64,000 nucleotides of DNA, from positions 62,001 to 126,000 of the forward strand of contig NW_027183992.1 in the NCBI RefSeq assembly GCF_041296385.1, written 5' to 3'. Shown piece by piece: positions 29,607-56,439 of this stretch (positions within the stretch are counted from its first letter, which is position 1; each line of letters opens with the position of its first letter). The stretch comes from Aphelocoma coerulescens. Taxonomy: Eukaryota > Chordata > Aves > Passeriformes > Corvidae. Made by a program: the position numbers and the translations under genes. The notes beneath the pieces are model-generated. The model was not told the origin of the DNA. It saw only the letters and a program-made list of their open reading frames with translations, and did not search any database.

Positions 29607-47871
<18,265 letters not shown>

Positions 47872-47884
47872 GCCCCGCGCCCGG

Positions 47885-48970
47885 ACGGGGGCCCTGGGCA
47901 GCGCCAGAGCCCCGAAAACCCACCCTAAATACCCCAGATCCTCAAAAATCGCCCCAAAGTACCCCCTGGGCAGTGCCAGAGCCCCAAAAACCCACCCTAA
48001 ATACCCCAGATCCGAAAAACCCGCCCCAAAGTACCCCCTGGGCAGCGCCAGAGCCCCGAAAACCCACCCTAAATACCCCAGATCCTCAAAAATCGCCCCA
48101 AAGTACCCCCTGGGCAGCGCCAGAGCCCCAAAAACCCACCCTAAATACCCCAGATCCTCAAAAACCACCCTTAAATACCCCAAATCCCCAAAAACCGCCC
48201 CAAAGTACCCCAGATCCTCAAAAACGGCCCCAAAGTACCCCCTGGGCAGTGCCAGAGCCCCAAAAACCCACCCTAAATACCCCAGGTCCTCAGAAACCAC
48301 CCCTAAATACCCCAGATCCTCAAAAACTGCCCCCAAATACCCCAAAACCACCCCTAAATACCCCAAATCCTCAAAATCCACCCCAAAATACCCCAGATCC
48401 CCAAAAACTGCCCCAAAATAACCCAGATCCTCAAAAACTGCCCCAAAGTACCCCCTGGGCAGTGCCAGAGCCCTGAAAATCGACCCTAAATACCCCAGGT
48501 TCTCAGAAACCACCCCAAATACCCCAAAACCACCCCTAAATACCCCAGATCCTCAAAATCCACCCCAAAATACCCCAGATCCCCAAAATCCACTCCAAAA
48601 TACCCCAGATCATCAAAAACTGCCCCGAAATAACCCCTGGGCAGTGCCAGAGCCCTGAAAATCGACCCAAAGTACCCCAAATCCTCAAAATCCACCCCAA
48701 AATACCCCAGATCCCCAAAAACTGCCCCTAAATACCCCAGATCGTCAGAAACGGCCCCAAAGTACCCCCTGGGCACCGCCAGAGCCCCAAAAACCGACCC
48801 TAAATACCCCAGATCCTAAAAAACTGCCCCAAAGTAACCCCTGGGCAGTGCCAGAGCCCTGAAAATCGACCCAAAGTACCCCAAATCTCAAAAAACTGCC
48901 CCTAAATACCCCAAGTCCACAAAAACCGCCCCTAAATACCCCCTGGGCAGAGAAAATCAACCCAAAATCC
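47885..48970 (+). repeat. Repeat array just after the SNRPA stop codon
   Basis: Units carry CCCTGGGCAGTGCCAGAGCC, CCCACCCTAAATACCCCAG and ATCCTCAAAA. The first unit follows the stop by about 20 nt, so the array appears to be an expanded 3' UTR segment. A stray copy of the CCTGGGCAGTGCCAGAGC piece occurs at about 52063. Confidence 0.85.
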
Positions 48971-49093
48971 CCCAAATCCCAGAAATGCCCACCCAGACAC
49001 CCCCAAATCCCATAAAAATACCCCAAAATCCCACCAAACCACCCCGAAACACCCCGAATCCCATTAAAATCGCCCCCAAATCCTCCCCATCCC

Positions 49094-49102
49094 CAGGTAA
49101 GT
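49094..49102 (+). promoter_or_regulatory. Consensus U1 snRNA-complementary site in the SNRPA 3' region
   Basis: CAGGTAAGT is a nine-base match to the U1 5' end, in an otherwise unremarkable C-rich stretch, downstream of the stop and upstream of the PIE copies. In mammals a U1-binding site in the U1A 3' UTR cooperates with the PIE to repress poly(A) addition. A real 5' splice site is the alternative. Confidence 0.7.
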
Positions 49103-49149: not shown

Positions 49150-51375
49150 TGAGCCCAAATCTCCTTTGGTCACCCCAAATTTCCCAATCCCCACCCCAAA
49201 TCCTTCTTTGTCCACCCCAAATCCCCTTTTCTGTACCCAAATCTCCCTTTCCCATCCCGAGTCCCCCAAATCCCCACCCCAAATCCCCAAATCCCCTTTT
49301 CCCACCCCAAATCCCCACCCCAAATCCCCTTTTCCCACCCCAAATCCCCACCCCAATTCCCCCCAAGGTTTTTGGGGTTCCCTGAGGAGTTTTTGGGGTC
49401 TCTGCCCCCACTCCAATCCCCCATCCCCGCCCCAAATCCCCTTCCCAATCCCCCCAAGGTTTTTGGGGTTCCCTCAGGGGTTTTTGGGGTTTTTCCCCCC
49501 CCCAGCATTGTACCCAGGGTCTCACTGCAGACATTGCACCTGGAGCCGCCCCAAATCCCCAAATCCCCGCCCCAAATCCCCTTTTCCCACCCCAAATCCC
49601 CACCCCAATTTCCCCTGGGGTTTTTGGGGTTCCCTGAGGAGTTTTTGGGGTTCCCTGAGGAGTTTTTGGGGTTCCCTGAGGGGTTTTTGGGGTCTCTGCC
49701 CCCACCCCAATCCCCCATCCCCACCCCAAATCCCCTTTCCCACCCCAAATCCCCTTCCCAATCCCCCCAAGGCTTTTGGGGTTCCCTCAGGGGTTTTTGG
49801 GGTTTTTCCCCCCCCCAGCATTGTACCCAGGGTCTCACTGCAGACATTGCACCTGGAGCCGCCCCAAATCCCCAAATCTCCACCCCAAATCCCCGCCCCA
49901 AATCCCTGCCCCAAATCCCCTTTCCCAGCCCCTCAGGTGTTTTTGGGGTTCCCTCAGGGGTTTTTGGGGTTTTTCCCCCCCCCAGCATTGTACCCAGGGT
50001 CTCACTGCAGACATTGCACCTGGAACCGCCCCAAATCCCCTTTTCCCACCCCAAATCCCCACCCCAATTCCCCCTGGGGTTTTTGGGGTTCCCTGAGGAG
50101 TTTTTGGGGTTCCATGAGGGGTTTTTGGGGTCTCTGCCCCCACTCCAATCCCCCATCCCCGCCCCAAATCCCCTTTCCCATCCCCCAAATCCCCTTCCCA
50201 ATCCCCCCAAGGCTTTTGGGGTTCCCTCAGGGGTTTTTGGGGTTTTCCCCCCCCCCAGCATTGTACCCAGGGTCTCACTGCAGACATTGCACCTGGAGCC
50301 GCCCCAAATCCCCAAATCCCCGCCCCAAATCCCCTTTTCCCACCCCAAATCCCCACCCCAATACCCCCTGGGGTTTTTGGGGTTCCCTGAGGAGTTTTTG
50401 GGGTTCCCTGAGGGGTTTTTGGGGTCTCTGCCCCCACCCCAATCCCCCATCCCCACCCCAAATCCCCTTTCCCACCCCAAATCCCCTTCCCAATTCCCCC
50501 AAGGCTTTTGGGGTTCCCTCAGGGGTTTTTGGGGTTCCCTCAGGGGTTTTTGGGGTTTCCCCCCCCCCAGCATTGTACCCAGGGTCTCACTGCAGACATT
50601 GCACCTGGAGCCGCCCCAAATCCCCAAATCTCCACCCCAAATCCCCTCCCCAAATCCCCAAATCCCTGCCCCAAATCCCCAAATCCCTGCCCCAAATCCC
50701 CTTTCCCAGCCCCTCAGGGGTTTTTGGGGTTCCCTCAGGGGTTTTTGGGGTTTTTCCCACCCCAAATCCCCACCCCAATTCCCCCTGGGGTTTTTGGGGT
50801 TCCCTGAGGAGTTTTTGGGGTTCCATGAGGGGTTTTTGGGGTCTCTGCCCCCACTCCAATCCCCCATCCCCGCCCCAAATCCCCCTTTCCCATCCCCCAA
50901 ATCCCCTTCCCAATCCCCCCCAGGTTTTTGGGGTTCCCTCAGGGGTTTTTGGGGTTTCCCCCCCCCAGCATTGTACCCAGGGTCTCACTGCAGACATTGC
51001 ACCTGGAGCCGCCCCAAATCCCCAAATCTCCACCCCAAATCCCCTTTTCCCACCCCAAAGCCCCTTTCCCAGCCCCTCAGGGGTTTTTGGGGTTCCCTCA
51101 GGGGTTTTTGGGGTTTTCCCCTCCCCCAGCATTGTACCCAGGGTCTCACTGCAGACATTGCACCTGGAGCTGCCCCAAATCCCCAAATCCCCACCCCAAA
51201 TCCCCTTTTCCCACCCCAAAGCCCCTTTCCCAGCCCCTCAGGGGTTTTGGGGGTTCCCTCAGGGGTTTTTGGGGTTCCCTCAGGGGTTTTTGGGGTTTTT
51301 CCCCTCCCCCAGCATTGTACCCAGGGTCTCACTGCAGACATTGCACCTGGAGCTGCCCCAAATCCCCTTTTTCCA
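49150..51375 (+). repeat. Higher-order array carrying the PIE copies
   Basis: Modules are GGGGTTTTTGGGGTTCCCTG, CCCACCCCAAATCCCC and the PIE. PIE-to-PIE distances are 313, 167, 273, 312, 398, 161 and 183 bp, so the units are modular rather than constant. Confidence 0.9.
49506..51350 (+). promoter_or_regulatory. Eight tandem copies of the U1A polyadenylation-inhibition element (PIE)
   Basis: Each 38-nt copy holds ATTGTAC, a CCAGGGTCT...AGAC hairpin arm, ATTGCAC and CTGG. Copies start at 49506, 49819, 49986, 50259, 50571, 50969, 51130 and 51313. Both seven-base U1A recognition boxes are unchanged in all eight. In vertebrate U1A pre-mRNA a single PIE binds two U1A molecules, which inhibit poly(A) polymerase. 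The pairs CCAG/CTGG and GTCT/AGAC can enclose the ATTGCAC box as an internal loop, as in the known structure. The last copy ends 34 nt before AATAAA. Confidence 0.92.
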
Positions 51376-51380
51376 CCCCA

Positions 51381-51386
51381 AATAAA
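51381..51386 (+). terminator. SNRPA: SNRPA poly(A) signal
   Basis: AATAAA, the only plus-strand one I see between the stop codon and 51400. It lies 34 nt after the last ATTGCAC box and is followed by a T/G-rich downstream element from about 51416. Confidence 0.8.
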
Positions 51387-52794: not shown

Positions 52795-54213
52795 ATGGAA
52801 ACAAAGGTGGCCCTTAATTTATTTTTACGCTTTTTAGAAAAGCGGGGACTTAAGGAGATAAACCTTGGTAAGGAATTAAATGCGTTAATAACGTTCGGGG
52901 AAAAGCAAGGGTTCTTTAAGGACCCAGGATCGTTGTTCCATGAACAGCAAGGGCAAGAATGTGGTGTTTGTTTATGGAATCTCGTTATAGATGGCAATAA
53001 AGAAGCTAGAAAGTTAATGAAGCCGTGGAGAGCAGTAAATTATTGTCTTAAACAGTATCCTGCTGAAAAGCAGGTAGCAGCAGTTGCTACGGCTCATTTA
53101 GAGGGCAAAGCCCCTCCACCTGGCACAGTGGCACTCGGGAGCGATTTCGTTCCCACGCCACCCATAGGGTGCCCCGTAGCTGTTAAAGCCCTCACAGATC
53201 AGACACCGTCTGTTCTACCGACGGCACCCCCGGCAGAAAAGAAAGAGGAGTTACCAGAAAGCGACAAAAAGAAGTTGGAACAAGAAGCCGCTGGATGGCA
53301 CCAAGAGCTTCCTGAAAATTTCAACACATGTAACAGCCTTAAATCTCGAGTTAAATGGACTGGAAAGGAATAGTAAAAGCAGCCCTCGAGAATAAAGACT
53401 ATGAACTGGCAGAAGCGATCCGAGATCCGTTTGCCTTCCCAGGAATATATCAAACAGGCGAGGGGGGAATAGTAGGAGCACATAATCCTGTCGACTGGAA
53501 GCTGCTAACTCAGCTGCGAGGCGCAGTCAATGAGTCAGGGCTGCAGAGTGAACCAGCAAAGCAAATGTTAAACTACGTGTGGGGGAGTGGGATTCTCTGC
53601 CCAGAAGACATTAAAACTATTGTTGGAATGATTATGACCCCGGCACAAGTTCTGCTGTGGCCGCGCACTGGAATCGCCTTTGCGATGCCTCTGCTAACGC
53701 TGCCCGTGACCCACAAGAGCCTTTAAATGGGGTAACCGTGGAGCAGCTTATGGGTGTTGGGCGGTTTGCCAGAGCTGAAATGCAAGTGCAAGTGGGGCCA
53801 GAAAGATTATTAGAAGCGATGGGACTTGCACGGCAGCAGTGTCCTATATAAAAACAACCCCCCCTCAGCCCTCCTACCTGCCAATCAAGCAAGGAAGGGA
53901 CGAGCCCTTTCCAAGTTTTGTCGACAGTTACTAAGGCTCTACACAACTCAGATGTACAAGACTTTATGAGAGGACCATTATGAAGACAGTGTGTGATGGA
54001 GAACTGCAATTCTTTTCCTCGAGCCATATTAGTTCCACTGCCTGCAGATGCACCGGTAGAGCTGATGCTGGATAGAATGAGCCGAGTGCCAGGAGGGCCA
54101 CGGGCAATGCTGGTGGAAGCTGTTAGAGAGTTAGGGAAAGATTTAGTGCAAGCCCAAAATCCAGCCTTTGCAGCCCTGGCTCCCTTGAGAGGGGCAGAAG
54201 CACCAAGAGGCAG
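52795..54213 (+). pseudogene. gag remnant (matrix and capsid), class II provirus
   Basis: A matrix-like reading frame opens with ATG at 52795 and runs to 53373. Capsid-like sequence continues in another frame (53355-53726), shifts again near 53657, and resumes at 53993-54213. At least two frameshifts and a stop break it. The family call rests on the capsid segments and the 3' neighbours. Confidence 0.75.
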
Positions 54214-55739: not shown

Positions 55740-56090
55740 CCCGAGGAAGCCTCGGCCTGGACCTGGCAACAGCAATAGATGTGACCTGGATTGACGACCG
55801 ACCCCAGAAGATTCCAGAGCCCCGAGTCATCAATGGGCAGTGCCATGGAGCTCTGCTGTTAGGTCGCTCTTCCAGTAGAATGAAAGGGCTTTTTATATTG
55901 CCCGGCCTAATTGACAAAGACTATGAAGGAGAGATTTGCATCATGGCTCAAACTCACTTTCCACCTGTGCACATCCCAGCACACAGCAAAATTGCTCAAT
56001 GAATACCTTTGCCTCACCTGACTGCAGCTATAGCCCAAGAAGCGCCGCAGAGGGGAACAAGAAATTTTGGTTCAACTGGGAGTCTCGCTC
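55740..56090 (+). pseudogene. dUTPase domain of the class II provirus
   Basis: A GLDLATAID segment near 55755, a GRSSSRMKG segment near 55865 and an RGTRNFGSTG segment near 56055 resemble dUTPase motifs in order. An in-frame TGA lies at 56000-56002. Such a domain precedes protease in betaretroviruses. Confidence 0.7.
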
Positions 56091-56099
56091 TTCTTACCC

Positions 56100-56439
56100 T
56101 CCCGCTAGCTCCCGGCCAGTTGCTACTGCCGTGTTCACTCATGGCAGCGATTCCATAACGTTATCTGCTCTCTTGGACTCTGGAGCAGACTTAACAATAG
56201 TGGCCAATTCATGCTGGCCTCAGCACTGGCCCCTTCAACGTGCAGCAGGAGGAGTCGAAGGTGTCGGAGGCACTGAGTCAGTACAACACAGCCGGGATCG
56301 AATTCAAATCATCCGAGATGGACGCACTGCATCTGTTATAGTCACAGTGATGCCTCTGCCTGAGAAAGTGAACGCTCTAATAGGAAGAGACGTGCTCACC
56401 CCGCTGAGGTCTGTGTTAACCACTGAGACTCCTTTTTGA
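56100..56439 (+). pseudogene. Protease domain of the class II provirus
   Basis: The aspartic protease signature LLDSGADLTIV (DSG codons at 56176-56184) and a downstream LIGRDVL flap-end motif are seen. The frame differs from the dUTPase and from the following RT. The shift into RT near 56436 could reflect the natural frameshift of this family. Confidence 0.8.

Follow-up and report, generated by a model that had tools for sequence, protein, structure and literature searches.

Eight tandem copies of a U1A PIE-like element in the 3′ region of a songbird SNRPA gene and their probable origin in local repeat expansion

In this study, we analyzed a 64-kb stretch of songbird DNA (the window) and found eight copies of the U1A PIE in the 3′ region of its SNRPA gene. 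At the sequence level, we observe the array itself, its block structure, its location ahead of the one AATAAA in this region, an intact reading frame for U1A, and like copying at the ends of exons 2 and 3. The explanation we favor, and hold to be rather probable, is a songbird SNRPA 3′ UTR expanded by the process described as sequence stuttering, with one working PIE and mostly passive further copies, which perhaps act as a weak sink for U1A.

The SNRPA reading frame is intact on the + strand of the window and comprises six coding exons for 283 residues, with AG before and GT after the exons at the inner junctions (Table 1). Besides this reading frame, the assignment to SNRPA in the initial annotation was confirmed by tblastn, for which an approximate human U1A sequence was used as query, and by a PDB search, in which exon 2 matched U1A with an E-value of 1.5e-32. 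The alignment with human U1A contains 215 identical positions in 293 columns. Among the best 120 of 3,471 matches of the protein search, 20 of the 21 top rows had 89–92% identity over the full length and were nearly all named as songbirds, while the remaining one was a low-quality model of Chamaea fasciata with 75% identity. Searching the genome with a 144-residue query from exons 1–3 gave six matches, four on the SNRPA contig, including one copied exon-3 tail, and two on another contig (66% and 50% identity), which presumably represent the U2B″ gene. The first RNA-binding domain is nearly unchanged in the alignment with a primate protein, with five differences in the first 95 residues. The basic linker at 37567–37626, which we take as the counterpart of the peptide that inhibits poly(A) polymerase in human U1A, contains an additional RE- and RD-rich run; this run was present in all five aligned songbird proteins, the one studied here included, and in none of the seven others (crane, emu, cuckoo, alligator, turtle, primate, and Xenopus).

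Table 1. Features of the SNRPA locus, in positions of the 64-kb window.
Feature	Position	Strand	Evidence or remark
SNRPA exon 1 (coding part)	29607..29679	+	tblastn with approximate human U1A; splice junctions
SNRPA exon 2 (RRM1)	31595..31767	+	PDB search; tblastn; splice junctions
Array of exon-2 tail with 5′ splice site, intron 2	31744..33867	+	12 copies, one of them real and 11 decoys
SNRPA exon 3 (end of RRM1, basic linker)	37507..37692	+	tblastn; splice junctions
Array of exon-3 tail with 5′ splice site, intron 3	37680..39345	+	7 matches, real exon end included
SNRPA exon 4	41298..41468	+	tblastn; splice junctions
SNRPA exon 5 (RRM2 start)	45516..45604	+	tblastn; splice junctions; reading frame
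Coding part of SNRPA exon 6, stop codon included	47712..47871	+	tblastn; splice junctions; reading frame
3′ region, C/A-rich tandem repeats (period 72, related units)	47872..49093	+	
ATTAAA ahead of the array, perhaps a proximal poly(A) signal	49063..49068	+	T-rich stretch downstream
CAGGTAAGT, candidate U1 snRNP site	49094..49102	+	sole occurrence on the + strand of the window
PIE copy 1	49503..49548	+	Rfam; lower stem 3/4 pairs
PIE copy 2	49816..49861	+	Rfam; lower stem 3/4 pairs
PIE copy 3	49983..50028	+	Rfam; lower stem 2/4 pairs, Box 2 closing C-G lost
PIE copy 4	50256..50301	+	Rfam; lower stem 3/4 pairs
PIE copy 5	50568..50613	+	Rfam; lower stem 3/4 pairs
Junction of a seemingly deleted ninth PIE and flank	50747..50776	+	inferred from block comparison
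PIE copy 6	50966..51011	+	Rfam; lower stem 3/4 pairs
PIE copy 7	51127..51172	+	Rfam; lower stem 4/4 pairs
PIE copy 8	51310..51355	+	Rfam; lower stem 4/4 pairs; 25 nt before AATAAA
AATAAA poly(A) signal	51381..51386	+	followed by a GT-rich stretch (GTGGTTTTTTGGGG)

The stop codon is followed by 3.5 kb of C-rich repeats with ATTAAA (49063), CAGGTAAGT (49094), the eight PIEs (49503–51355), and AATAAA (51381) in this order. The latter is the sole AATAAA within 47.8 to 52.0 kb and starts 34 nt after the last box, in agreement with the array end given by the initial annotation. Copy 8 lies 25 nt from this signal and the other seven copies 208–1832 nt. In the 110 nt before each PIE, three to six GGGG runs occur (49396–51312), and copies 5, 7, and 8 have a four-run G-quadruplex pattern, with loops of at most 9 nt, in front of them. 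Further downstream of SNRPA, Pfam matches in two of six scanned stretches point to provirus-like pieces on the + strand, namely Gag p24 (53615–53848; E 8.8e-9) and a retroviral protease (55927–56436; E 1.4e-16).

The array consists of eight ATTGTAC...ATTGCAC pairs with a fixed offset of 26 nt on the + strand, starting at 49507, 49820, 49987, 50260, 50572, 50970, 51131, and 51314. Allowing up to two mismatches, the paired-box pattern matched eight times, compared to a mean of 0.31 and a largest count of 3 in 100 shuffles. A block of 38 nt (CATTGTAC...CCTGG) with both U1A boxes inside is identical in all copies, and the start-to-start spacing ranges from 161 to 398 nt, with seven different distances. 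The Rfam model RF00460 (U1A_PIE) matched every copy with E-values of 4.8e-9 to 2.4e-5 and bit scores of 47.8 (two copies), 41.7 (five copies), and 35.2 (one copy), the best match spanning positions 6–51 of the 74 model positions. The eight-copy array is thus real by pattern count, Rfam matches and block identity; its boxes are indeed unchanged amid filler of variable length, and the element is PIE-like, though all copies score below the gathering score of 50 bits. Other Rfam rows, i.e. Dictyoglomi-1 (E 6.5e-6), mir-6131 (0.14), and HIV RRE (0.77), were far under their gathering scores and were taken as chance matches on repeats.

Across the genome (1.33 Gb, 660 contigs), the exact paired-box pattern with a loop of 3–10 nt was found in these eight copies only. 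The genome search with RF00460 also returned only these eight among the 59 of 240,533 first-look candidates that were scored, so that more distant PIE relatives could be missed. Collections of viral contigs and of genome contigs, both poor sources of bird DNA, contained no PIE match. In the titles and opening abstract lines of the open-licence literature, no description of an amplified PIE was found.

All eight copies share with the known U1A PIE (RF00460) the gene, both boxes on opposite sides of the middle stem, the middle stem itself, and four of the five upper-stem pairs, and the C-G pair closing Box 1 is present throughout. In its U1 snRNA target, U1A reportedly makes contacts with the AUUGCAC loop as well as with the C-G pair that closes it (PMC2203988). 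Copy 8 also resembles the known element in its position just before the poly(A) signal. The array differs from the known element in that there are eight copies, whereas the consulted parts of reviews describe one element, in that the fifth upper pair of the model is C-C in all copies, in the sub-threshold scores, and in the incomplete lower stem of copies 1–6. The complete lower stem of copies 7 and 8 is also the state of the Rfam consensus, and therefore these two copies probably retain the older form of the PIE. The ends of tandem arrays are generally thought to be less homogenised.

With non-pairing positions opened, the energy of the PIE fold was calculated as −6.1 kcal/mol for the Rfam consensus, −5.9 for copies 7 and 8, −1.2 for copies 1, 2, 4, 5, and 6, and +2.4 for copy 3. 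In native flanks, RNAfold did not favor the PIE fold: the middle-stem probability of each copy was 0.06 or lower when the full array was folded, rose to at most 0.68 in copy 8 with flanks of 150 nt, and reached 0.81 in copies 7 and 8 when the flanks were only 6 nt long. These modelled probabilities count against the favored explanation, although the Rfam consensus, too, lacks the PIE fold as its RNAfold minimum. For the latter reason, RNA folding was rejected as proof of a PIE.

Comparison of the copies with each other revealed a block structure. The block with copies 1–3 matches the stretch that carries copies 4 and 5; the two differ at 10 of 693 aligned spacer positions and at none of 76 core positions, and the second block lacks a stretch carrying one PIE. 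A ninth PIE thus seems to have been lost from the second block, most simply by deletion.

Similar copying is visible in the introns. The exon-2 tail array, with steps of 183–206 bp, provides intron 2 with potential decoy 5′ splice sites. When the exon-stuttering threshold of Hron et al. 2026 (PMC12954441; 20 nt, 42.1 bits) was applied, four decoys each of exon 2 and exon 3 passed and exons 1, 4, 5, and 6 had none; at the same threshold, the PIE had seven extra copies and the segment with the U1 site none. Tandem-repeat coverage was 0.87–1.00 along the initial 48 kb of the window and fell to 0.45 over the following 8 kb, where the array is located, and to 0.04 over the final 8 kb, compared to 0.00–0.15 in six sampled 10-kb stretches of four large contigs. 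The window is located at the repeat-saturated end of a 2.66-Mb contig. Among 16 other stretches of this contig, three nearer to its start had a coverage of 0.94–0.99 and 13 beyond the window 0.01–0.40. The surroundings appear to resemble avian dot chromosomes, a label taken from repeat content and not from a map, and the low coverage past position 126 kb of the contig was counted against it.

Sequence stuttering was described for avian dot chromosomes by Hron et al. 2026 (PMC12954441), who report copied exon ends with their splice sites and repeat blocks isolated inside introns, without crossing into exons. As in that account, SNRPA shows local tandem repetition with imperfect units that are tens to hundreds of bases long, and the ends of exons 2 and 3, splice donors included, have been copied into introns. 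The PIE array differs in lying after the stop codon and before AATAAA and in copying a structured regulatory element; the intron-confined blocks reported there count against stuttering as its source. The main text, as far as consulted, mentions neither SNRPA nor UTRs, and the supplementary gene list may include SNRPA. Most likely, the PIE was amplified by a repeat-making process that also acted elsewhere in SNRPA. Among the options initially proposed, neutral hitch-hiking in a repeat-prone locus is the best supported one; the ends of exons 2 and 3 were copied too, and the first 48 kb of the window have a tandem-repeat coverage of 87–100%.

Under the favored explanation, local tandem expansion would have copied a unit of G-rich block, pyrimidine tract, PIE, and C-rich spacer, followed by duplication of a three-PIE block and loss of one PIE. 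According to reviews, two U1A molecules bound to the PIE inhibit poly(A) polymerase. With its complete lower stem and its distance of 25 nt to AATAAA, copy 8 is the copy most likely to work and may still do this classic job, perhaps helped by U1 snRNP at CAGGTAAGT. Copies 1–7 would mostly be passengers; if transcribed, they could provide extra U1A sites, weaker ones in copies 1–6, and their effect as a local sink for free U1A would be mild at most. Regarding the U1 site, Guan et al. are said to have described in 2007 one that acts with the PIE in human U1A mRNA. The songbird gene likewise has a perfect 5′ splice-site-like CAGGTAAGT in the SNRPA 3′ region upstream of the PIE. It differs from the human site in lying 405 nt ahead of the first Box 2 and 2,212 nt ahead of the last one, and in that no base-pairing partner with a run of at least 8 pairs was found for it from 48.9 to 51.4 kb.

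An alternative is that the array is kept by selection, with up to sixteen U1A molecules per transcript giving a higher feedback gain or a buffer of free U1A. For evaluation, the flanks of the copies were used as yardstick, a tree was constructed from pairwise distances, and changes were counted loosely or strictly, the strict count comprising mismatches only in clean context. For the 38-nt core, whose limits were set after its invariance was seen, the loose count gave 4.5–9.7 expected changes and none seen (P 0.0001–0.01; with half the tree length 0.008–0.10), and the strict count 1.3–3.9 expected and none seen (P 0.02–0.28; half length 0.14–0.53). For the 46-nt Rfam element, which has two changes, or one without CpG positions, P was 0.0004–0.02 by the loose count (half length 0.04–0.27) and not significant by the strict count (0.11–0.91; half length 0.44–0.97). 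A column count with a Fisher P of 9e-7 (0 of 38 core versus 52 of 147 gap-free flank columns variable) was discarded because the flank columns contain misaligned repeats.

As controls we used the copied exon tails, excluding the real ends of exons 2 and 3; for exon 3, five of the seven matches were used and the divergent one at 39319 was dropped. The 11 exon-2 decoys evolved about as their flanks by the loose count (6–13 changes seen, 8–16 expected) and exceeded the strict expectation (3.5–6.6), so the strict count looks too strict. The five exon-3 decoys (27 nt), which presumably have no function, looked conserved by the loose count (0–1 changes seen, 4.3–6.3 expected; P 0.01–0.18) and not by the strict count (P 0.51–0.84).

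The slower change of the core by the loose count, absent in the exon-2 control, could mean selection on the copies, in line with both boxes, middle stem, and 4-bp upper stem being intact in all eight and with the nearly unchanged RNA-binding domain of the ligand. Box identity is no proof of it, because strict P values range from 0.02 to 0.53 and a presumably functionless control is conserved by the loose count. Moreover, the core was chosen post hoc, the longer element lacks strict significance, the lower stem is incomplete in six of eight copies, one PIE was seemingly lost, and all eight copies are preceded by an equally invariant G-rich piece of 24 nt that lies outside the PIE. The suggestion that conserved boxes amid variable spacers hint at constraint was therefore not established, as recent duplication suffices; from the proposed comparison of spacer and box substitution rates, a core slower than its flanks emerged by the loose count (P 0.0001–0.10) and was not borne out by the strict one. 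Selection is thus possible, and maintenance of the array by it appears rather unlikely to us. A further, speculative idea, which we regard as distinctly unlikely, is that the PIE is a variable-number array across songbirds or individuals, whose copy number would set U1A self-limitation or how much free U1A the nascent transcripts retain, the upstream U1 site being a second input.

The array could also be located outside the mature mRNA, as downstream flank, if polyadenylation were mainly directed by ATTAAA, whose first base lies 31 nt ahead of CAGGTAAGT and which is followed by a T-rich stretch. This is improbable in view of the canonical AATAAA with its GT-rich stretch at the array end and of the PIE just before it, as expected if AATAAA is the regulated site. 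We consider it highly improbable that the PIE copies serve as alternative 3′ splice sites for a donor CAGGTAAGT, whereby splicing in the 3′ UTR would set the PIE number and could trigger decay: all eight are preceded by a C/T tract ending in CAG, with a pyrimidine content in 15 nt of 0.73–0.93 compared to 0.60–0.87 at five coding acceptors of SNRPA, but the CAG is expected anyway since it belongs to the lower stem of the PIE. Long tandem arrays are generally hard to assemble, but an array collapsed or extended by assembly error is very unlikely given the seven different copy-to-copy distances and the location within a 2.66-Mb contig.

In the transferrin receptor mRNA, too, a structured element that binds protein occurs several times in the 3′ UTR; these iron-responsive elements control decay by iron and are conserved. 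The SNRPA array shares with them the repetition of such an element; it differs in that theirs is a conserved array that governs mRNA decay by iron. If the SNRPA 3′ UTR was indeed expanded by stuttering, avian repeat expansion would reach into a 3′ UTR and copy a well-studied RNA element that is bound by the product of the gene itself. The array would then offer a natural series for asking whether the number of binding sites alters autoregulation, and it would be an example of a functional-looking repeat that is perhaps simply carried along.
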